DNA of 64,000 nt from Georgenia sp. SYP-B2076. Its GTDB lineage: Bacteria; Actinomycetota; Actinomycetes; Actinomycetales; Actinomycetaceae. The position numbers and the translations under genes are program-made. Below the pieces are notes generated by a model that worked only from the letters and a program-made list of their open reading frames with translations, was not told the origin of the DNA and did not search any database. Positions 4,170-12,968 of this stretch are shown piece after piece (within the stretch, counting starts at the first letter, position 1; every line of letters starts with the position of its first letter). The stretch spans positions 1 through 64,000 of the forward strand of contig NZ_RXOZ01000036.1 of NCBI RefSeq assembly GCF_003991205.1, in the 5' to 3' direction.

Positions 4170-5159
4170 TCAGCCCTGCCGCAGCCGGCGGAGCTCGGCG
4201 ATCGCCTGCGACAGCACGTCGCTCACATCACCGACGACCCCGAGATCGGCCATCTCGAAGATGGGGGCCTCGGGGTCGTTGTTGATCGCCACGACCGTCT
4301 CAGCCGCCTGCATCCCGGCGGTGTGGTGGATCGCGCCGCTGACCCCGGCGCCGATGTACAGGCGCGGGGAGATCGTCACGCCCGTCTGGCCGACCTGCGC
4401 GGAGTGCTCGATCCACCCCTCGTCGGTGGCCACGCGGGTCGCGCCCACGGCGGCGCCGAGCTCGTCGGCGAGCTCCTCGACCAGGGTGAAGTCGCCGTCC
4501 ACGCCCCGGCCGCCGACGACCACGACCTTCGCCTCGGACAGCGGCGCCCGCCCGCCGCGGGGGTGCTCGGTGCGCGAGACCACCCGGACCGCCCGGGCGC
4601 CGGCGGAGAAGCCGACCGGCACGCTGACGGCGGTCGCCGCGCCGCTGGGGGCGGGGACCGCCTCGGCGGCGGTGGGCTTGAGGGCCACGACGGGGACACC
4701 CCGGGTCACGGCGCAGGTGGTGTCCCAGGTGCCCTGGAGCACCGTCTTGGACACGGCCAGCGTGCCGTCGGCCGTGACGGCGACACCGGTCGCGTCGACG
4801 ATCGCTCCCGAGCCCAGCGCCACGGCCAGGCGCGCTGCGAGCTCCTTGCCCGCGAAGGTGGAGACGAGCAGCACGGCGGCGGGCTCCACCTCCCTCGCGA
4901 CGGCGAGGACCGCCTCGGCCGCCACGGCGGTCACCTCGGGCGAGAGCCCGTCCAGCTCCGGGACGTGGACGGTGCCCACGCCGTAGCGGCCGAGCGCGTC
5001 GAGGTCCGGCGCGTCGGTCAGGGCCGCGGCGGCGACGCCGGCCGGCCCGGCCAGCGTCCGCGCGAGGGTGAGGACCTCGGCGGACGGCGCGGTCAGGGCG
5101 CCGCCGACGTGGTCGACGACGACGAGCACGGGTGCGGTGAGCGTGGTGGGCTCGGTCAT
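4170..5159 (-). CDS. etfA: electron transfer flavoprotein alpha subunit
   Basis: 329 aa. EtfA binds FAD and, with EtfB, carries electrons from acyl-CoA and related dehydrogenases to the quinone pool. The C-terminal FAD domain is clear: KVVVVGGRGV, the conserved QVGQTGVTISPRLYIGAGVS region and SGAIHHTAGMQ, then VAINNDPEAPIFEMADLGVVGD. The N-terminal half is the less conserved ETF alpha/beta domain. The ATG has AGGAGA 5 nt upstream, and the gene follows etfB by 13 nt, so the two form one operon. No partner dehydrogenase or ETF-quinone oxidoreductase lies in the window. Confidence 0.95.
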   Translation of the reverse strand: MTEPTTLTAPVLVVVDHVGGALTAPSAEVLTLARTLAGPAGVAAAALTDAPDLDALGRYGVGTVHVPELDGLSPEVTAVAAEAVLAVAREVEPAAVLLVSTFAGKELAARLAVALGSGAIVDATGVAVTADGTLAVSKTVLQGTWDTTCAVTRGVPVVALKPTAAEAVPAPSGAATAVSVPVGFSAGARAVRVVSRTEHPRGGRAPLSEAKVVVVGGRGVDGDFTLVEELADELGAAVGATRVATDEGWIEHSAQVGQTGVTISPRLYIGAGVSGAIHHTAGMQAAETVVAINNDPEAPIFEMADLGVVGDVSDVLSQAIAELRRLRQG

Positions 5160-5172
5160 GTTCTCTCCTGCC

Positions 5173-5982
5173 TCAGACAAGCTTGTTCTCGACCAGGAAC
5201 GCGGCGAGCCGCACACCCGCGTCGCCGGAGTCGGTGATGATCTGTCCCTGCGCCCGCCGGGGCCGCGCCGCTGCGGAGAGCACCCGGGTGCCCGCGCCGG
5301 CGGTGCCGACCTCGGGTCCGCCGTCGGCCTCCGCGCCCGTGGACGCCAGGGCCAGGTCGTCGAGGTCCCAGAGGGTCACGGGCTTCTTCTTCGCCGCCAG
5401 GATCGCCTTGAAGTTCGGGTAGCGCGGCTCGTTCGCCTCGTCGGTCACCGAGAGCACGGCGGGCAGCTCGGCGGCGAGGACCTCGTCCGCCTCGCCGATC
5501 GTGCGGGTGATCGTGAGGGTCCCCTCCGACAGCGTCACCTCGCTCGCCAGGGTCAGCTGCGGCAGGTCGATGGCCGCGGCGAGCGCGGAGGGCAGCATCG
5601 CGGTGAGCCCGTCCATCGAGGCCATGCCGGTGACGACGAGGTCCACCGGCACCTCGCCGCCGAGCTTGCGCACGGCGGCGGCGAGCACACGGGCCGTGCC
5701 CACGACGTCGGAGCCGGCGATTCGGTCGTCGCTGACATGCACGCCGGAGTGGGCGCCCATCTGCAGGGCGCGTCGGACGGCGTCGACGGCGCCCCCCGGG
5801 CCGACGGTCAGCGCGACGACCTCCCCGCCCGTCTCCTCGGCGAGGGACACGGCGGCCTCGACGGCGTTCTCGTCGAGCTCGCTCAGGACGTCGTCCTCCC
5901 CGCGCACGAGATGGCCGTCGGAGCCCAGGCTTCGCTCGGACTGCAGGTCGGGGACATGCTTGACGCAGACGACGATCCTCAT
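5173..5982 (-). CDS. etfB: electron transfer flavoprotein beta subunit
   Basis: 269 aa, the usual length. EtfB is the AMP-binding partner of EtfA. Family features: N-terminal RIVVCVKHVPDLQSE, the GPGGAVDAVRRALQMGAHSGVHV stretch that contacts AMP, VVTGMASMDG, and a C-terminal arm that wraps EtfA. It is the first gene of the pair. No TAnnnT box at leaderless distance and only a weak GGGA stretch precede the ATG, so the start is set by family alignment rather than by signals. The 287 bp upstream (5983-6269), shared with glgX on the other strand, contain no other gene. Confidence 0.94.
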   Translation of the reverse strand: MRIVVCVKHVPDLQSERSLGSDGHLVRGEDDVLSELDENAVEAAVSLAEETGGEVVALTVGPGGAVDAVRRALQMGAHSGVHVSDDRIAGSDVVGTARVLAAAVRKLGGEVPVDLVVTGMASMDGLTAMLPSALAAAIDLPQLTLASEVTLSEGTLTITRTIGEADEVLAAELPAVLSVTDEANEPRYPNFKAILAAKKKPVTLWDLDDLALASTGAEADGGPEVGTAGAGTRVLSAAARPRRAQGQIITDSGDAGVRLAAFLVENKLV

Positions 5983-6269
5983 GGTCCCAGCCTGCCACCT
6001 GGCGGCGGACGGGTCGCAATCGGCGCCCGCGCCGCCGCGCGCGTGTGCGCACTCTCACCCGCGTCCCCCGGCCCCCCGGGCACGGCGCCCCGGCGGCGAC
6101 GGGGGACGGAGGTCCCCCGCGCGGCCGCCGTCCGGCCCCGCGGTCCGGCCCGCGCCCCCACGGCACCGTCCCCGCCACCCCCCATGGCGCCGGCCCCGCC
6201 CCGAGCCGGTGCCCCGGCCGCGGCCGTCCCGCGCGCGAACACGCCTGACGTGTGCTGTTGAATGGGCCG

Positions 6270-8552
6270 GTGACCACCACACACTTCCGACCTCCGGGCC
6301 CGGCGACTGCCGTGACGCCGGCCGCCGGGCTGCCGTACGTGGACCGGCCGGCGCCGATCGCGCCGGGCCGCGCCCTCAACCCCCGGCGCCTCGGCGCCCA
6401 CCTGGTCGGCGACGGCATCGACGTGGCGGTGCACGCGGCCCGGGCGAACCGGGTGGACCTGTGCCTGGTCGACGTCGCCGACGACGGTTCGCTCACCGAG
6501 CGCCGCTACCGCCTGCGCGGCCCCGTGACGGGGATCTGGCACGGCCACGTCCCCGGCGTGCGCGCGGGCCAGCGCTACGGCTTCCGGGTGCACGGGCACT
6601 GGGACCCGACCGTGGGACTCCTGCACAACCCGGCCAAGCTGCTCCTCGACCCCTACGCGCGCGCCGTCACGGGGCAGGCCCGGGTGGTGCCCGCGATCTA
6701 CTCGCACACGGTCGACCGGTACCGGGCACCCCTGGACGGCCGCACGAGCGCCGACCGGACCGACTCGGCGCCGTTCGTCCCGCACGGCGTGGTGATGGAC
6801 GCCGTCTCCCCCGCCGTCGCCGCGCCGCGGGTGCCGTGGTGCCAGACCGTCCTTTACGAGGCGCACGTGCGCGGGCTGACGATGCGGCTGCCCGGCGTCC
6901 CCGCCGACCTGCGCGGGACGTACGCCGGCCTCGCGCACCCGGCCACGATCGCGCACCTGTTGGGCCTCGGCATCACGACGGTCGAGCTGCTGCCGATCCA
7001 CGCGAGCATGTCCGAGCCCTTCCTCACCGACAAGGGGCTGACGAACTACTGGGGCTACAACACCCTGGGCTTCTTCGCGCCCGAGCCGCGCTACGCCACG
7101 CGCGCCGCGCAGGACGCCGGGCCCCGGGCGGTCCTCGACGAGGTCCGCGCCATGGTCGGGGGCCTGCACGCGGCGGGCCTCGAGGTCGTTCTCGACGTCG
7201 TCTACAACCACACGTCGGAGGCCGGCGCGGACGGCCCGACCCTGAGCCTGCGCGGGCTGGACAACACGGGGTACTACCTGCACGACGGCTCGAGCCCCGC
7301 CCGGCTCGCCGACGTCACGGGCACGGGCAACTCGCTGGACTTCCGGCGCACGCGGGTGGTCCAGCTGGCGCTGGACTCGCTGCGCTACTGGGCGGGTGAG
7401 ATCGGCGTGGACGGCTTCCGCTTCGACCTGGCCGTCACGCTCGGGCGCAACGGGGCGGAGTTCACGCCGTACCACCCGTTCCTCGTCGCCATGGCCACCG
7501 ACCCCGTGCTGAACCAGACGAAGCTCATCGCCGAGCCGTGGGACCTCGGCCCGGGCGGGTGGCGCACCGGCCAGTTCCCGGCCCCCATGGCGGACTGGAA
7601 CGACCGGTTCCGGAACGCCGCGCGGACGTTCTGGCTATCCGACGCCGCGGCCCAGTCGAAGGGCACCACGGGGCGCGACCTGCGGGAGCTGGCCACCCGC
7701 ATGTCCGGCTCCGCGGACCTGTTCGGCCTGGGCGAGGTCCCGGGCGGGCGCGGGCCGCTCGCGTCGATCAACTTCGTCACCGCGCACGACGGCTTCACGC
7801 TGGCGGACCTGGTGACGTACGACCACAAGCACAACGAGGACAACCTCGAGGGCAACCGGGACGGCACCGACGACAACCGTTCGTGGAACCACGGCGTCGA
7901 GGGGCCGGTCCCGCGCGACTCCCCCTTCGCCGCGGTGCTGCCGGTCCGGCGTCGGTCCATGCGCAACCTCCTGGGCACGCTGCTGCTCTCGGCGGGCACG
8001 CCCATGCTCACGGCCGGGGACGAGATCGGGCGGTCCCAGGACGGCAACAACAACGCCTACTGCCAGGACGACGAGGTCTCCTGGGTGGACTGGAGCCCCG
8101 TGCCCTGGCGCGAGGACATGTGTGCCACCACCGAGTACCTCCTGCGCCTGCGCCGCGAGCACCCGGTGCTGCACCCCACCCGGTTCGCGTCCGGGCGCCC
8201 GGCGGACGGCGACGACCTGCCCGACCTGGCGTGGTTCGACGCGACGGGCTCAGCGATGACGACGCAGCAGTGGCACGACCCGCACCACCGTGTCCTGCAG
8301 ATGCTGCGCTCGGGCCGGCCGGTGGACGACTCCGACGCCCTGATCATCCTCAACGGGTCGCTCGACCAGCAGCCCGTCGCGCTGACGCCGGGCCGGGGCC
8401 GGGACTACGAGCTGGTCTGGGACTCCGCGTGGGAGCGTCCCGAGTACTCCCGCAACGAGGTGGACCACGACCCGCTGAGCATGGTGGCCTCCCCGGGCGA
8501 GACGGTGACCATGGAGTCGCTGAGCATGCGGCTCTACCTCGCGCGGCCCTGA
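6270..8552 (+). CDS. glgX: glycogen debranching enzyme GlgX (GH13, isoamylase type)
   Basis: About 760 aa. GlgX hydrolyses the alpha-1,6 branches left after phosphorylase action, releasing short maltodextrins. Order: N-terminal CBM48-like domain (GAHLVGDGIDVAVHAARANRVDLCLVD), GH13 barrel with LDVVYNHTSEA, the nucleophile Asp in DGFRFDLAVTLGR, the acid Glu in IAEPWDLGPGG and TAHDGFTLADLV, then a C-terminal beta domain. The start is uncertain: GTG 6270 has TTGAAT 6 nt upstream and no ribosome site, and GTG 6252 is also in frame. A 22-23 bp tandem repeat follows the stop. With GlgP (minus strand, further down) it completes glycogen breakdown. Confidence 0.93.
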   Translation: MTTTHFRPPGPATAVTPAAGLPYVDRPAPIAPGRALNPRRLGAHLVGDGIDVAVHAARANRVDLCLVDVADDGSLTERRYRLRGPVTGIWHGHVPGVRAGQRYGFRVHGHWDPTVGLLHNPAKLLLDPYARAVTGQARVVPAIYSHTVDRYRAPLDGRTSADRTDSAPFVPHGVVMDAVSPAVAAPRVPWCQTVLYEAHVRGLTMRLPGVPADLRGTYAGLAHPATIAHLLGLGITTVELLPIHASMSEPFLTDKGLTNYWGYNTLGFFAPEPRYATRAAQDAGPRAVLDEVRAMVGGLHAAGLEVVLDVVYNHTSEAGADGPTLSLRGLDNTGYYLHDGSSPARLADVTGTGNSLDFRRTRVVQLALDSLRYWAGEIGVDGFRFDLAVTLGRNGAEFTPYHPFLVAMATDPVLNQTKLIAEPWDLGPGGWRTGQFPAPMADWNDRFRNAARTFWLSDAAAQSKGTTGRDLRELATRMSGSADLFGLGEVPGGRGPLASINFVTAHDGFTLADLVTYDHKHNEDNLEGNRDGTDDNRSWNHGVEGPVPRDSPFAAVLPVRRRSMRNLLGTLLLSAGTPMLTAGDEIGRSQDGNNNAYCQDDEVSWVDWSPVPWREDMCATTEYLLRLRREHPVLHPTRFASGRPADGDDLPDLAWFDATGSAMTTQQWHDPHHRVLQMLRSGRPVDDSDALIILNGSLDQQPVALTPGRGRDYELVWDSAWERPEYSRNEVDHDPLSMVASPGETVTMESLSMRLYLARP

Positions 8553-8569
8553 TCCGTGCCCCGACGCGC

Positions 8570-8659
8570 GACGGCCGGGGCCCCGGGGTCGGGACGGCCG
8601 GGGTCCGGGGTCGGGACGGCCGGGGCCCCGGGGTCGGGACGGCCGGGCCCCTGGGTCGG
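8570..8659. repeat. tandem repeat, 4 copies of 22-23 bp, after glgX
   Basis: Copies at 8570-8592, 8593-8614, 8615-8637 and 8638-8659 each begin GACGGCCGGG and end GGGTCGG. Copies 1 and 3 contain the palindrome CCGGGGCCCCGG. They fill the space between the glgX stop and the trpS leader promoter and could help end glgX transcription, but no T-tract is present. Confidence 0.75.
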
Positions 8660-8661
8660 AC

Positions 8662-8667
8662 TAGGGT
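8662..8667 (+). promoter_or_regulatory. -10 box of the trpL-trpS transcript
   Basis: TAGGGT lies exactly 7 nt before the GTG of the leader peptide, the spacing typical of leaderless actinobacterial transcripts. No convincing -35 hexamer is visible in the repeat-rich DNA upstream. Confidence 0.6.
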
Positions 8668-8674
8668 GTTCGTC

Positions 8675-8722
8675 GTGCCGACTTCCCTGCGCTCCTGGTG
8701 GCCGTCCACACGACGGGCCTGA
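8675..8722 (+). CDS. trpL: Trp-rich leader peptide of trpS (attenuator ORF)
   Basis: 15 codons, GTG start, encoding MPTSLRSWWPSTRRA and ending in TGA. Two consecutive Trp codons occupy 8696-8701. The ORF starts 7 nt after a -10 box and lacks a ribosome site, so it is probably the first thing read on the transcript. It lies 82 nt upstream of trpS. Tandem Trp codons in a short ORF ahead of a Trp gene, followed by alternative hairpins, are the hallmark of ribosome-mediated attenuation: Trp-starved ribosomes would stall at W8-W9. The coding call rests on this context, not on length or conservation. Confidence 0.72.
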   Translation: MPTSLRSWWPSTRRA

Positions 8723-8784
8723 CGCGCACCATCCATCCGGCCGTCCCACGAGGTGGCCGTCGATCGGGCACCTCGCCCACGGCC
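8702..8784 (+). promoter_or_regulatory. trpS transcription attenuator (alternative RNA hairpins)
   Basis: Segment 1 CCGTC (8702-8706) pairs with segment 2 GACGG (8712-8716). Segment 2 (GACGGGCC, 8712-8719) can instead pair with segment 3 GGCCGTC (8739-8745) with one bulge, the antiterminator. Segment 3 GGCCGT (8739-8744) can also pair with segment 4 ACGGCC (8779-8784), enclosing the strong hairpin CGAGGTG (8749-8755) / CACCTCG (8769-8775) with an inner CCG/CGG stem. A ribosome stalled at the Trp codons would cover segment 1 and favour 2:3, which disrupts 3:4. No U-tract follows 8784. The trpS ribosome site (8794-8798) begins 10 nt later, so control could also act on translation. Confidence 0.6.
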
Positions 8785-8803
8785 CCGACCCACGAGGACA
8801 CGC

Positions 8804-9943
8804 ATGACCACCGAGCAGACCTCCCCCGCCCCGTCGACCATGGACGACGCCGGCACCGACCTGGCCGAGTCCACCAACGACGCCTCGCTCGAGCGCACGC
8901 AGCGCCGCAGCGACGAGATCGAGCGGGAGATCGTCCAGGACGCGTCGAGGTTCCGGGTCCTCACGGGCGACCGGCCCACCGGCAACCTCCACCTGGGCCA
9001 CTACTTCGGCAGCCTCCTCAACCGGGTCAGGCTGCAGCAGGCCGGGGTCGAGACCTTCGTGCTCGTGGCCGACTACCAGGTCATCACCGACCGTGACGGC
9101 GTCGGGCCGGTCCGCGACCGCGTGCTCTCCCTCATCGCGGACTACCTCGCCGTGGGGATCGACGCGGAGCGCTCCACGATCTTCACCCACTCCGCCGTGC
9201 CGGCGCTGAACCAGCTCATGCTGCCGTTCCTCAGCGTCGTCACCGACGCCGAGCTGCGCCGCAACCCCACCGTCAAGTCCGAGCTGGACGCCACGGGCGA
9301 CCGCCCGATGTCGGGCCTCATGCTGACCTACCCCGTGCACCAGGCCGCGGACATCCTCTTCTGCAAGGCGAACCTCGTGCCGGTGGGCAAGGACCAGCTC
9401 CCCCACCTGGAGCAGGCCCGCGTCATCGCCCGCCGGTTCGACGAGCGCTACGGCCGGGCCGGGGACGGCTCGCAGCCCGTGTTCCCCCGCCCGGAGGCGC
9501 TGCTCTCCGACGCCGCGAGCGTGCTGGGCACCGACGGCCAGAAGATGAGCAAGTCGCGCGGCAACTCGATCGAGCTGGGCATGGACGCGGACACGACGGC
9601 GAAGCTCCTGAAGCGTGCGGTCACCGACGCCGACCGCCACATCACGTACGACCCGGTCGGGCGCCCCGAGGTCTCCAACCTCGTGCTGCTCGCCGCGCTC
9701 TCGACCGGTCGCCGGCCCGAGGACGTGGCCGAGGAGATCGGCGACGGCGGCGGGGCGGCCCTGAAGAAGGCCGCGATCGAGGGCGTCAACGAGATGCTCG
9801 CCCCCGTGCGTGCGCGCCGCGCGGAGCTGACTGCCGACCCCGGCTACCTCCTGCAGGTGCTGCGGCGCGGCAACGACCGCGCCAACGCCGTCGCCGAGGC
9901 CACCCTGGCGGAGGTCCGCGAGGCCATGAGCATGGTCTACTGA
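8804..9943 (+). CDS. trpS: tryptophanyl-tRNA synthetase
   Basis: 379 aa class I aminoacyl-tRNA synthetase that charges tRNA-Trp. The HIGH-type motif is GNLHLGHYFG (near residue 60) and the KMSKS loop is GQKMSKSRGNS (near 245). The first roughly 45 residues are a charged, poorly conserved extension. ATG 8804 is preferred because GAGGA lies at 8794-8798; an in-frame GTG at 8753 falls inside the attenuator stem and is unlikely. Regulation by the Trp-Trp leader just upstream is inferred: charged tRNA-Trp, the product of this enzyme, would be the sensed signal. Confidence 0.96.
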   Translation: MTTEQTSPAPSTMDDAGTDLAESTNDASLERTQRRSDEIEREIVQDASRFRVLTGDRPTGNLHLGHYFGSLLNRVRLQQAGVETFVLVADYQVITDRDGVGPVRDRVLSLIADYLAVGIDAERSTIFTHSAVPALNQLMLPFLSVVTDAELRRNPTVKSELDATGDRPMSGLMLTYPVHQAADILFCKANLVPVGKDQLPHLEQARVIARRFDERYGRAGDGSQPVFPRPEALLSDAASVLGTDGQKMSKSRGNSIELGMDADTTAKLLKRAVTDADRHITYDPVGRPEVSNLVLLAALSTGRRPEDVAEEIGDGGGAALKKAAIEGVNEMLAPVRARRAELTADPGYLLQVLRRGNDRANAVAEATLAEVREAMSMVY

Positions 9944-10018
9944 CCTGCCGATCCGGCTCTGCTCACGGGCCGTTCGAGTCTGCTGACCGTTCCGGGTCGG
10001 GCGGCGGTGCTCGTGCCC

Positions 10019-10024
10019 TACCTT
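10019..10024 (+). promoter_or_regulatory. -10 box of the 54-aa membrane protein gene
   Basis: TACCTT ends 6 nt before ATG 10031, with no ribosome site between; leaderless-type arrangement. Confidence 0.45.
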
Positions 10025-10030
10025 GGCGCC

Positions 10031-10195
10031 ATGGACGGTGGCGTCGGCGGGATCATCCTGTGGCTGGTGACGCTCTTCGCCGTCTACTGGTCGGTGCGGG
10101 CGGCGGTGAAGGACGGCATCCTCGACGCCGCCCACGCCCGCGACAAGGAGATCACGAAGACGCCGCCCCCGGGCGCCGTCGACACCTCGGCCTGA
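10031..10195 (+). CDS. small single-pass membrane protein, 54 aa
   Basis: The peptide begins MDGGVGGIILWLVTLFAVYW: a short N-terminus, one hydrophobic helix (about residues 6-22), then a charged cytoplasmic-looking tail with VKDGILDAAHARDKEI and a Pro-rich end. Function unknown; no family is recognised. ATG 10031 is preferred to the in-frame GTG at 10007 because TACCTT lies 6 nt before it and because the helix then sits at the N-terminus. It follows trpS by 87 bp and converges on glgP. Confidence 0.62.
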   Translation: MDGGVGGIILWLVTLFAVYWSVRAAVKDGILDAAHARDKEITKTPPPGAVDTSA

Positions 10196-10229
10196 CATCC
10201 CCGGCCGCAGGTTCCTCCGCAGGACACCC

Positions 10230-10294
10230 CCGCCGAGTGCCACCTTCCGGTCGGGTCCGCCCACCCACAGCGGTGCCAAACGTGCCACTCGGCG
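10230..10294. repeat. palindrome-ended intergenic repeat, copy 1
   Basis: 65 bp bounded by CCGCCGAGTGCCAC and GTGCCACTCGGCG (inverted, 12 of 13 matching). Its 33-bp core (10245-10277) is identical to that of copy 2. It lies between convergent genes. Confidence 0.7.
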
Positions 10295-10302
10295 CACCCA
10301 CC

Positions 10303-10368
10303 CCGCCGAGTGACACGTTCCGGTCGGGTCCGCCCACCCACAGCGGTGCCGGACGTGCCACTCGGCGG
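10303..10368. repeat. palindrome-ended intergenic repeat, copy 2
   Basis: 66 bp bounded by CCGCCGAGTGACAC and GTGCCACTCGGCGG (13 of 14 inverted match). The core 10318-10350 equals that of copy 1. The element ends 8 bp from the glgP stop, so its hairpins may end transcription arriving from either side. Confidence 0.7.
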
Positions 10369-10376
10369 TGGGGGAC

Positions 10377-12968
10377 TCAGTACTCCGCGTTGACCGCCAG
10401 GCCGAGCTCGGTGTAGCCCGCGAGGTTCGCGTGCTGGGGCACCACCCGGACGGCGTAGCCGAACGGCCCGGTCATGTCGAGCGTGCGCTCGCCTCCGAAG
10501 GCGTAGTGCCCCCCCTCGAGCGTCTGGGTGAGCGCGAGCGGGAACACCTGCGGGTCTCGCAGCGTGTCGTCCTCGTCGGGGCGTCCGGCGACCACCTGGA
10601 CCTCGACGTCCTCGGGGGTGAGGTCGCCGAGGTAGGCCTGGACGGAGATGGAGATGGTGTCCCCGACCTTGACGACGTCGGAGATGCCGTCGGACTCGAT
10701 GTGGTCCACCTTCACGGCGGGCCAGGCCTGGCGCACCCGGGACTTCCACGCCGCCAGGTCACGGGCCTCGCCGTGGCCGGCGACACGGTCCAGCTCGCGC
10801 GCCGAGCGGGCGACGGGGGTGTAGAGGCCGCGGACGTAGTCCTGCACCATGCGGGTGGCCTGGACCTTCGGCCCCAGCGTGCCAAGCGTGTGGCGGACCA
10901 TCTCCAGCCAGTGCTGGGGGATGCCCTCGCCGTCGCGGTCGTAGAACCGCGGCACCACGGTGCTCTCCAGGAGCTCGTACAGCGCCGAGGCCTCCAGCCG
11001 GTCGCGGGTGGCGGGGTCCTCGACGCCGTCGGCGGTGGGGATCGCCCACCCGTTGCGCCCGTCGTACCACTCGTCCCACCAGCCGTCGAGGATGGAGAGG
11101 TTGAGCGCCCCGTTGAGCGCGCACTTCATCCCCGAGGTGCCGGACGCCTCCAGCGGGCGCAGCGGGTTGTTGAGCCAGACGTCGCAGCCCGGCATGAGGG
11201 ACTGCGCCATCGCGATGTCGTAGTTCGGCAGGAAGACGATGCGCTCGCGCACGCCGGCGTCGTCGGCGAACTGCACGAGCTTCTGGATCAGGCCCACGCC
11301 CTGTTCGTCGTCGGGGTGGGACTTGCCCGCCACCACGATCTGGATGGGACGCTCCGGGTCGGTCAGCAGCTTCGTGAGCCGCTCGGGGTCGGAGAGCATC
11401 AGGGTCAGGCGCTTGTAGGTGGGCACGCGGCGCGCGAAGCCGATGGTGAGCACGTCGGGGTCGAGGACCTCGTCCGTCCAGCCGATCTCGGCCGGGGAGG
11501 CGCCGCGGTCGAGCCACGACTTGCGCACCCGGCGTCGCGCCTGGTCCACGAGGTTGCCGCGCAGCCGGCGCCGCATGGCCCACAGCTCGGCGTCGGAGAC
11601 GCCGCCCTCGGCCTCGGTGAGCCGCCAGCCGTCCCCGGAGGCCGCCTGCTCCGGCGTCATGTGCGCCGAGGTCATCTCCGCGAACGCGGGGTCGGTCCAC
11701 GTCGGCCCGTGGACGCCGTTGGTCACCGACGTGATGGGCACCTCGGAGACGTCGAACCCGGGCCAGAGCTGGTGGAACATCGCCCGCGAGACCTTGCCGT
11801 GCAGCCGGGCGACGCCGTTGGCGCGCTTGGCCGCGCGCAGGCCGAGGACCGCCATGTTGAACACCGCGGGGTCCCCGCCGGCGAAGTCCTCGGCGCCGAG
11901 CGCCAGGACCTTCTCCAGGGGGATGCCCTCGATCTCCTCGCTGCCGCCGAAGTACGCCGAGATCAGGTCCCTGCTGTACCGGCTGATGCCCGCGGGCACC
12001 GGGGTGTGCGTGGTGAAGACCGTGCCGCCCTTGACGGCCTCGAGCGCCGTCTCGAACGAGACGCCGTCGGCGGCGATGAGCTCACGGATCCGCTCGACCG
12101 CGAGGAACCCGGCGTGGCCCTCGTTGCAGTGGTAGACCTCCGGGGTCGGGGACCCCGTCAGCCGGGAGTACAGGCGCACGGCCCGGATACCGCCCATGCC
12201 CAGCAGCAGCTCCTGCTGGAGGCGGTGGTCCTGCGAGCCGCCGTAGAGGCGGTCGGTGACGCGGCGGGCGGTCTCGTCGTTCTCGATGACGTTGGAGTCC
12301 AGCAGCAGCAGCGGGACGCGGCCGACCCGGGCCAGCCAGACCTGCGCGTGCAGGGTCCGCCCGCCGGGCATGTTGAGCTCCACGCGCGCGGCGGTGCCGT
12401 CGGGCTCGCGCAGCAGCGTGAGCGGAAGGTTGTCGGGGTCGAGCAGCGGGTAGGTCTCGTGCTGCCAGCCGTCCCGGGTCAGGGACTGCTTGAAGTACCC
12501 GGCGCCGTAGAGGAGGCCGACGCCGACGATGGGCACGCCGAGGTCGGAGGCGGACTTGAGGTGGTCCCCGGCGAGGATGCCCAGGCCGCCGGAGTACTGG
12601 GGCAGCACCGCGGTGATGCCGTACTCCGCGGAGAAGTAGGCGATCGCGTTCGGCTTGTCGGGGTCGTCGAGGGAGCTCTGGTACCAGCGCGGCTCCGTGA
12701 GGTACCGCTGGAGGTCGGCGTCGAGCTCGCGGACCTGGGCCACCAGGGCGCGGTCGGCGGCGAGCTGCTCGAGGCGCCTGGGGCTGAGGGAACCGAGCAG
12801 GGAGACCGGGTCGCCGTGCACGGACTCCCACAGCTGGGGGTCGAGCGAGGCGAACATCTCACGTGTCGGGGCGTGCCAGGACCACCGCAGGTTCTGCGCG
12901 AGCGTGTCCAAGGGGGCAAGCGCCTCGGGAAGGACGGTGCGGACGGTGAATCGTCGGATGGCTCTCAC
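10377..12968 (-). CDS. glgP: alpha-glucan (glycogen) phosphorylase GlgP
   Basis: 863 aa. It releases glucose 1-phosphate from glycogen ends using PLP and phosphate. An N-terminal DUF3417-like segment (LAQNLRWSWHAPTREMF) marks the bacterial/archaeal short type. The core has FSAEYGITAVLPQYSGGLGILAGDH, EVYHCNEGHAGFL, VFTTHTPVPAG and the PLP-lysine region EASGTSGMKCALNG. The start is GTG 12968, exactly 7 nt after a TAGACT box and without a ribosome site. It is transcribed away from glgE; the 168-bp region between them carries repeated operator-like sequences, so breakdown and synthesis may be co-regulated from one site. Confidence 0.95.
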   Translation of the reverse strand: MRAIRRFTVRTVLPEALAPLDTLAQNLRWSWHAPTREMFASLDPQLWESVHGDPVSLLGSLSPRRLEQLAADRALVAQVRELDADLQRYLTEPRWYQSSLDDPDKPNAIAYFSAEYGITAVLPQYSGGLGILAGDHLKSASDLGVPIVGVGLLYGAGYFKQSLTRDGWQHETYPLLDPDNLPLTLLREPDGTAARVELNMPGGRTLHAQVWLARVGRVPLLLLDSNVIENDETARRVTDRLYGGSQDHRLQQELLLGMGGIRAVRLYSRLTGSPTPEVYHCNEGHAGFLAVERIRELIAADGVSFETALEAVKGGTVFTTHTPVPAGISRYSRDLISAYFGGSEEIEGIPLEKVLALGAEDFAGGDPAVFNMAVLGLRAAKRANGVARLHGKVSRAMFHQLWPGFDVSEVPITSVTNGVHGPTWTDPAFAEMTSAHMTPEQAASGDGWRLTEAEGGVSDAELWAMRRRLRGNLVDQARRRVRKSWLDRGASPAEIGWTDEVLDPDVLTIGFARRVPTYKRLTLMLSDPERLTKLLTDPERPIQIVVAGKSHPDDEQGVGLIQKLVQFADDAGVRERIVFLPNYDIAMAQSLMPGCDVWLNNPLRPLEASGTSGMKCALNGALNLSILDGWWDEWYDGRNGWAIPTADGVEDPATRDRLEASALYELLESTVVPRFYDRDGEGIPQHWLEMVRHTLGTLGPKVQATRMVQDYVRGLYTPVARSARELDRVAGHGEARDLAAWKSRVRQAWPAVKVDHIESDGISDVVKVGDTISISVQAYLGDLTPEDVEVQVVAGRPDEDDTLRDPQVFPLALTQTLEGGHYAFGGERTLDMTGPFGYAVRVVPQHANLAGYTELGLAVNAEY

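Follow-up and report, generated by a model that had tools for sequence, protein, structure and literature searches.

The trpS gene of Georgenia sp. SYP-B2076 is preceded by a very short open reading frame (ORF) with two adjacent tryptophan codons, which raises the question of whether this ORF senses charged tRNA-Trp and controls the synthetase gene through competing RNA hairpins. Our answer, with a probability of roughly 0.85, is that trpS is controlled here by a ribosome-mediated attenuator whose leader peptide is leaderless. The initial annotation had proposed this reading, and it is supported by the parts of the element, their conservation, the covariation of three pairings and the spacing from the -10 box. 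By the window we mean the whole 64,000-nt stretch of DNA that was analysed; the leader and trpS are on its plus strand.

The trpS gene (8804..9943, ATG start at 8804) encodes a tryptophan--tRNA ligase of 379 aa (TIGR00233, 225.8 bits, cut-off 176.75), and a TIGR00233 search of the own genome gave one match, so that the trpS of the window is the only one found. A Shine-Dalgarno-like GAGGA is located at 8794..8798. The closest named TrpS relatives belong to Ornithinimicrobium cavernae (78%) and Georgenia satyanarayanai (77%), and the two best solved-structure matches include 2a4m (E 2.9e-66), an entry named tryptophanyl-tRNA synthetase II. Upstream of the leader lies glgX (6252-8552; TIGR02100, 800.2 bits, cut-off 640.9), and an alpha-glucan phosphorylase gene (10377-12968, minus strand; TIGR02094, 778.3 bits, cut-off 191.7) follows trpS in convergent orientation. 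Between glgX and the leader promoter, a repeat unit of about 22 nt, GACGGCCGGGGCCCCGGGGTCGG, occurs four times in tandem and fills the gap (8570-8659); other short repeats occupy the glgX-leader gap in the related loci L004 and L008.

The putative leader promoter has a -10 box TAGGGT (8662..8667), and no recognisable -35 element was found by a two-hexamer promoter scan. After a 7-nt spacer, GTTCGTC (8668-8674), a GTG opens the 15-codon leader peptide ORF VPTSLRSWWPSTRRA (8675..8722), which has homologues in related bacteria. The codons after GTG read CCG ACT TCC CTG CGC TCC TGG TGG CCG TCC ACA CGA CGG GCC TGA, and the ORF ends 81 nt before the trpS start. Direct reading of the sequence confirms this arrangement of box, spacer, GTG and adjacent tryptophan codons as initially described. 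The TGG TGG pair (8696..8701; columns 1-6 of the alignment A1 described below) is the proposed sensing site. A classical attenuator has a short leader ORF in which codons for the regulated amino acid stand in tandem, and such an ORF is present both here and in the homologues. An Rfam search of positions 5000-12000 gave no match at E values up to 5, to a T-box riboswitch or any other Rfam family.

We defined such leaders as a TANNNT box followed after 5-8 nt by a start codon, which opens an ORF of 5-30 codons containing two adjacent tryptophan codons (WW). Leaders of this form were found in 36 of 151 trpS upstream regions, a non-independent set because the collections overlap in places (e.g., L019 and L035, with identical TrpS), versus none of the 151 reverse complements; in 100 first-order Markov resamples the mean was 0.03 per 151 and the maximum one. 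Both strands of the window contain a single case, the site at 8675, and two cases occur in the remaining locus DNA (about 988 kb). The 151 regions derive from 159 loci, L002-L160 (the window is L002, and L001 repeats the locus of the window), after removal of L153-L160, which have no recognisable TrpRS signature. They comprise the 30 best family-search matches, the 80 best named relatives, 20 one-per-genus family picks that leave out three genera (g34-g36), and 21 regions from the class search. Four of the nine genomes of the genus and 16 of the 80 named relatives are among the 36, the latter including members of Ornithinimicrobium, Micropruina, Propioniciclava, Austwickia, Actinomadura, Kitasatospora, Streptomyces, Nocardioides, Intrasporangium and Nocardia. 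Within a class-wide draw of 158 genomes, 16 of the 20 trpS genes most similar to that of the window (58-66% identity) carry the leader. Two of the remaining four possess a triple-Trp leader, truncated at the contig end in L143 and preceded by CATACT instead of TANNNT 7 nt before its GTG in L151, and no leader was seen in the other two, L133 and L134. The definition favours a nearby -10 box and would miss leaders whose 5' UTR is long; when any WW ORF of 5-30 codons was accepted, few further cases appeared, mostly longer readings of the same leaders.

Of the 36 leaders, 24 have a gap of 6 nt and the other 12 one of 7 nt between the -10 box and the start codon, and none has 5 or 8 nt, both of which the definition allows. 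Start codons (GTG in 19, ATG in 17) and stop codons (TAG in 21, TGA in 12, TAA in 3) vary, and the stop is kept 2-6 codons after WW. Given these varying codons, the kept place of the stop and the 6-7 nt gap, both the ORF and the leaderless start look selected. In Streptomyces lividans, the -10 box precedes the transcription start by 6.3 nt on average, and leaderless transcripts make up 17% of the total (PMC8079986). Because the gap in the leaders matches this spacing, transcription is expected to begin at the start codon, and the GTG of the window stands at the position so expected. From the sequence we strongly infer that the leader transcript starts at the leader start codon, which is a predicted start, and this leaderless arrangement seems to be conserved throughout the 36 leaders.

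The RNA of the window contains four segments with alternative partners. Segment 1 (GGCCGTC, 8700..8706) overlaps the second tryptophan codon and pairs with segment 2 (GACGGGCC, 8712..8719, one bulged G), as a letter-by-letter check showed; the leader stop codon (8720-8722) lies directly 3' of segment 2. Segment 3 (CGGCCGTCC, 8738..8746) pairs either with segment 2, forming the antiterminator, or with segment 4. The 2:3 helix joins 8712-8719 with GGCCGTC at 8739-8745 by seven pairs and a bulged G (-9.3 kcal/mol); this pairing had been proposed before, and each of its pairs was borne out letter by letter. The local partner of segment 3 is segment 4 (GGTGGCCG, 8752..8759), and their helix, the form conserved class-wide, has a calculated energy of -11.1 kcal/mol with one G-U pair and one bulge, or -12.1 kcal/mol with its flank. 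Helix 1:2 likewise carries one bulge. In addition, GGCCGT at 8739-8744 pairs by six pairs with a distal segment 4' (ACGGCC, 8779..8784) around an inner hairpin (8749..8775, -18.4 kcal/mol), closing a nested hairpin (8739-8784) of -30.7 kcal/mol (z -3.85, none of 200 shuffles equally stable). For 3:4, the initial annotation had given 8779-8784 as the partner of segment 3: that pairing is real, but it is clade-specific, and the class-conserved partner is the local 8752-8759. The 1:2 hairpin and the local 3:4 hairpin were both absent from that annotation. Helices 1:2, 2:3 and 3:4 are mutually exclusive and so placed that, with assumed footprints, a stalled ribosome would cover segment 1 and a terminating one segment 2.

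We further aligned 40 segments reaching from the tryptophan codons through the hairpin (alignment A1; 39 distinct), namely those of the 36 leaders and of L143, L005, L006 and L011. These homologues share the four segments, with covarying 1:2, 2:3 and 3:4 helices. With 1:2 and 3:4 as the named structure, 90.5% of cells are paired versus 81.4% after shuffling and 80 cells are changed on both sides versus 26.2, figures in which 3:4 is favoured, as the 3' ends of the rows were set by a folding step and those of L002 and L005-L008 by an imposed local-hairpin pattern. None of 500 shuffles, which ignore kinship, reached these values on cells paired, double-changed cells or score; one did so on pairs with a double change and 33 on pair types. 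Taken singly, 1:2 has 91.7% and 3:4 89.7% of cells paired. For 2:3 the corresponding values are 92.8% of cells paired versus 85.9% and 25 double-changed cells versus 7.3; cells paired, double-changed cells and score were again matched by none of 500 shuffles (kinship ignored), and there was no excess in pairs with a double change (64 of 500 shuffles as high) or in pair types (352 of 500). Sliding a partner by 1-3 columns lowered pairing to 17-56%, and an unguided RNAalifold run on A1 recovered 3:4 with nine pairs and, of 1:2, the four basal pairs. In many rows segment 1 resembles segment 3 and segment 2 resembles segment 4, the stems changing together, e.g., GGCCGTCC with GGACGGCC in Streptomyces rubellomurinus (L092) and GGCTGCT with AGCAGCC in Nocardioides alcanivorans (L083). 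In L088, L089, L092 and L096, a further GACGGCC copy was observed 3' of the terminator hairpin, close to the ribosome site of trpS.

In a search for 31-nt hairpins with loops of up to 9 nt, the best hairpin consisted of segment 3 and its near neighbour in 33 of the 36 leaders. The three exceptions (L002, i.e. the window, L007 and L008) all belong to the genus of the window, as do L005 and L006, two leaders with one tryptophan codon. Because alignment A2 was too gappy for pair counts, the nested hairpin was assessed by per-sequence shuffles, and in five of seven sequences at most 3 of 200 shuffles were as stable. Nested hairpins like that of the window were found in L005, L006, L008 and L011, the last from a sister genus (z -4.38 to -2.67); the structure is weaker in L007 (z -1.56, 14 of 200) and was not found in L004 (z -0.53, 54 of 200). 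Since the local form is best in 33 of 36 leaders and nested hairpins occur in the genus and its sister genus, we regard the distal 3:4' pairing as real but clade-specific.

A covariance model built from A1, of which the window is one of the 40 rows, scores 50.4 bits at the window site, with E 3.9e-6 in the whole own genome and 0.154 for the next best match. The only match below E 0.15 is before trpS, and trpE directly follows hisI in this genome, which fits the earlier view that the synthetase and not a biosynthetic operon is controlled. Among the nine genomes of the genus, the model finds the trpS site in six; in the genus it also gives three weak matches at places other than trpS (L232-L234, E 0.005-0.009), two of which (L232, L234) resemble coding sequence. 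The class search gave matches at E <=0.001 in 17 of 118 genomes, 15 of them before trpS with the own site included (14 by the trpS places listed, plus L223 by TIGR00233). Eleven of these 15 genomes gave model rows, and G168, G213, G223 and G252 gave none. In L223 (497-1483, minus strand), trpS (TIGR00233, 266.8 bits) stands behind a leader that has tandem Trp codons and the same RNA element, in a genome with two TrpRS matches. Another leader of the leaderless type, MHTPSTRSWWPAS, precedes the gene of a chorismate-binding enzyme in a genome of the same order (L221, minus strand, about 1500-1570); the enzyme belongs to Pfam PF00425, resembles anthranilate or aminodeoxychorismate synthase and reaches no NCBIfam cut-off. 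The class match in L224 lies inside a coding frame and was taken as false.

The model also recovers sites that did not contribute to it. L151, which gave no model row, matches before trpS at E 3.3e-6 and is the only one of 54 chosen loci without a leader of the defined form to match at E 0.1. Among the places listed in the class-wide draw, most genomes show no TrpRS other than a distant one with about 31-42% identity. From the places listed in the class search we chose 40 distant TrpRS genes (34-41% identity); three carry a leader of the defined form, and the same three match the model below E 0.01 on the right strand. These three, L183, L194 and L200, again without model rows, match at E 2.5e-7 to 1.8e-6, each before trpS.

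We propose the following mechanism for the window. RNA polymerase would start at the G of the GTG (8675), and with transcription from that position the leader would have no 5' UTR and its translation would initiate in the leaderless mode. When charged tRNA-Trp is scarce, the ribosome would stall on the tandem codons (8696-8701) and cover segment 1; segment 2 would then pair with segment 3 and keep it from segment 4, and transcription would continue into trpS. With charged tRNA-Trp available, the ribosome would proceed to the stop codon (8720-8722) and cover segment 2, leaving segment 3 free to pair with its local partner, segment 4, as well as, in this clade, with distal 4' in the nested form; transcription would then stop early. 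The 2:3 helix is weaker than both the local 3:4 and the nested 3:4' structures, and it does not appear in equilibrium folds calculated with segment 1 covered. Because 2:3 cannot win at equilibrium, it would have to form before segment 4 is made, i.e. the switch would be kinetic. The region 8500-8900 contains no terminator-like site, and 3:4 lacks the U-tract of a classical intrinsic terminator, as the initial annotation had already remarked of the U-tract; termination would be either intrinsic without a U-tract or Rho-dependent. A U-tract is also absent at S. lividans trpL2 (PMC8079986), and we do not treat it as defining for this group.

The missing U-tract also suits control of trpS translation, in which folding would hide or free GAGGA (8794-8798), for example by pairing TCCTGGTGG of the leader with CCACGAGGA ahead of the trpS start, and a stalled ribosome would open it. 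Consistent with this, the minimum-energy fold of the free RNA pairs 8693-8701 with 8790-8798 with one mismatch, and the mean unpaired probability of the Shine-Dalgarno-like site rises from 0.21 in free RNA to 0.47 with a ribosome on the tryptophan codons. However, the site is more open still (0.60) once the ribosome stands at the stop codon, the wrong direction for control through 3:4, and we rejected concealment of the trpS ribosome site by 3:4 as the main mechanism. Moreover, the site lies outside both 3:4 and 3:4', and T-rich tails after the local hairpin, with at least four T among 8 nt in 11 of 36 leaders and at least five in five of 36, suit a transcriptional output in some relatives. 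Translational control is on balance quite unlikely.

The distribution of the element bears on whether the copy in the window still regulates. Homologous leaders with a short ORF, tandem TGG and covarying stems, anticipated by the initial annotation, are present in relatives and absent in three of the nine genomes of the genus, including G008, whose TrpS is nearest to that of the window (90%). Two further genomes (L005, L006) have TGG CGG in place of the tandem codons; L009 and L010 have a -10 box directly before trpS, i.e. trpS itself is of the leaderless kind, and L003 is of neither kind. Together with the bulges in the 1:2 and 3:4 helices of the window, this pattern could reflect an ancestral attenuator that is being lost in the genus and no longer regulates here. 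Against such decay, the window retains the -10 box, the start, both tryptophan codons, the stop and all four segments, at 50.4 bits. A change from tryptophan to arginine in the leader is no proof of decay either, as the S. lividans trpL2 peptide reads MMTRTCTQLWRAA (PMC8079986). A relic of this kind is about as improbable as translational control. A chance ORF with chance pairing in a GC-rich intergenic region, with which the ordinary stability of the whole RNA 8675-8803 agrees (z -1.03, 26 of 200 shuffles as stable), is refuted, as far as comparison can do so, by the leader counts, the covariation, the model matches and the fixed -10 spacing, and its probability is close to nil.

In a TrpRS tree of 130 rows, leader states are clustered, with 29 changes versus 63.9 after shuffling. 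A family sample of 50 (the 30 best matches and the 20 one-per-genus picks) contains four WW leaders, five one-Trp leaders and 17 cases with neither leader nor box, and a -10 box stands 5-9 nt before trpS itself in 24 of 50 (0.92 expected from shuffled upstream DNA). Tentatively, and at less than even odds, these states may descend from one block: a Trp attenuator of trpS in Actinomycetes with a fixed leaderless start, read by a 70S ribosome, from which deletion of the leader would have passed the promoter and its leaderless start on to trpS itself, and whose terminator arm would have moved in this clade to the distal nested partner.

The kind of switch is already known: Trp attenuators before trpS of Streptomyces are in print, one of them leaderless and without a U-tract (PMC8079986, PMC1262725). 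The latter case is trpL2 of S. lividans TK24, one of the attenuators identified through RNA-seq, which is leaderless by RNA-seq, stands before trpS and has two hairpins and no U-rich stretch (PMC8079986). The window shares with it the short Trp leader, here predicted to be leaderless, the two hairpins and the lack of a U-rich stretch, whereas its leader has two tryptophan codons and that of trpL2 one. The leaders of L183, L194 and L200, VMTRTCTQLWWAA or MTTRTCTQLWWAA, are plainly kin of the trpL2 peptide as given in that source and carry the same RNA element according to the model. Their trpS genes encode the distant TrpRS, with 39-41% identity to that of the window, which in contrast is the sole TrpRS found in its genome. 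We had considered placing trpL2 before a window-type trpS and dropped this assignment, since the three leaders tie it to the more distant type. Seliverstov et al. (2005) described candidate attenuators before trpS2 of S. avermitilis and before trp operons, with the repeated UGG codons and the complementary GGCC triples in antiterminator and terminator that are also seen in the window; unlike the window, their trp-operon terminators end in poly-U, and the word 'leaderless' does not occur in the paper (PMC1262725).

A search by title and abstract start found no study of trpS attenuation outside Streptomyces, most subscription journals being outside its reach. Vecchione and Sello reportedly described in 2010 the control of an auxiliary tryptophanyl-tRNA synthetase gene of Streptomyces by ribosome-mediated transcriptional attenuation; judging by the title, trpS is attenuated through leader translation as in the window, but the enzyme there is an auxiliary one and here the sole one found. 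Leaderless sensing has likewise been reported, by the title of a 2020 study of Canestrari et al., for polycysteine short ORFs that are said to be cysteine-responsive attenuators in mycobacteria, which differ from the window in amino acid and operon. Attenuation of aminoacyl-tRNA operons is said to have been surveyed by Lopatovskaya et al. in 2010, and Trp attenuators in Actinobacteria by Korolev et al. in 2015; these surveys may hold such leaders already.

The element in the window belongs, with good support, to a kind of switch known in related bacteria, and it probably raises the level of the enzyme when loaded tRNA is short. The analysis points to control of what is apparently the sole tryptophanyl-tRNA synthetase in a distant actinomycete by a switch known from Streptomyces. 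Within a single genus, the loci form a comparative series from a two-Trp leader through a one-Trp leader to no leader but a leaderless trpS, and this series lends itself to testing the link between leaderless initiation and attenuation.
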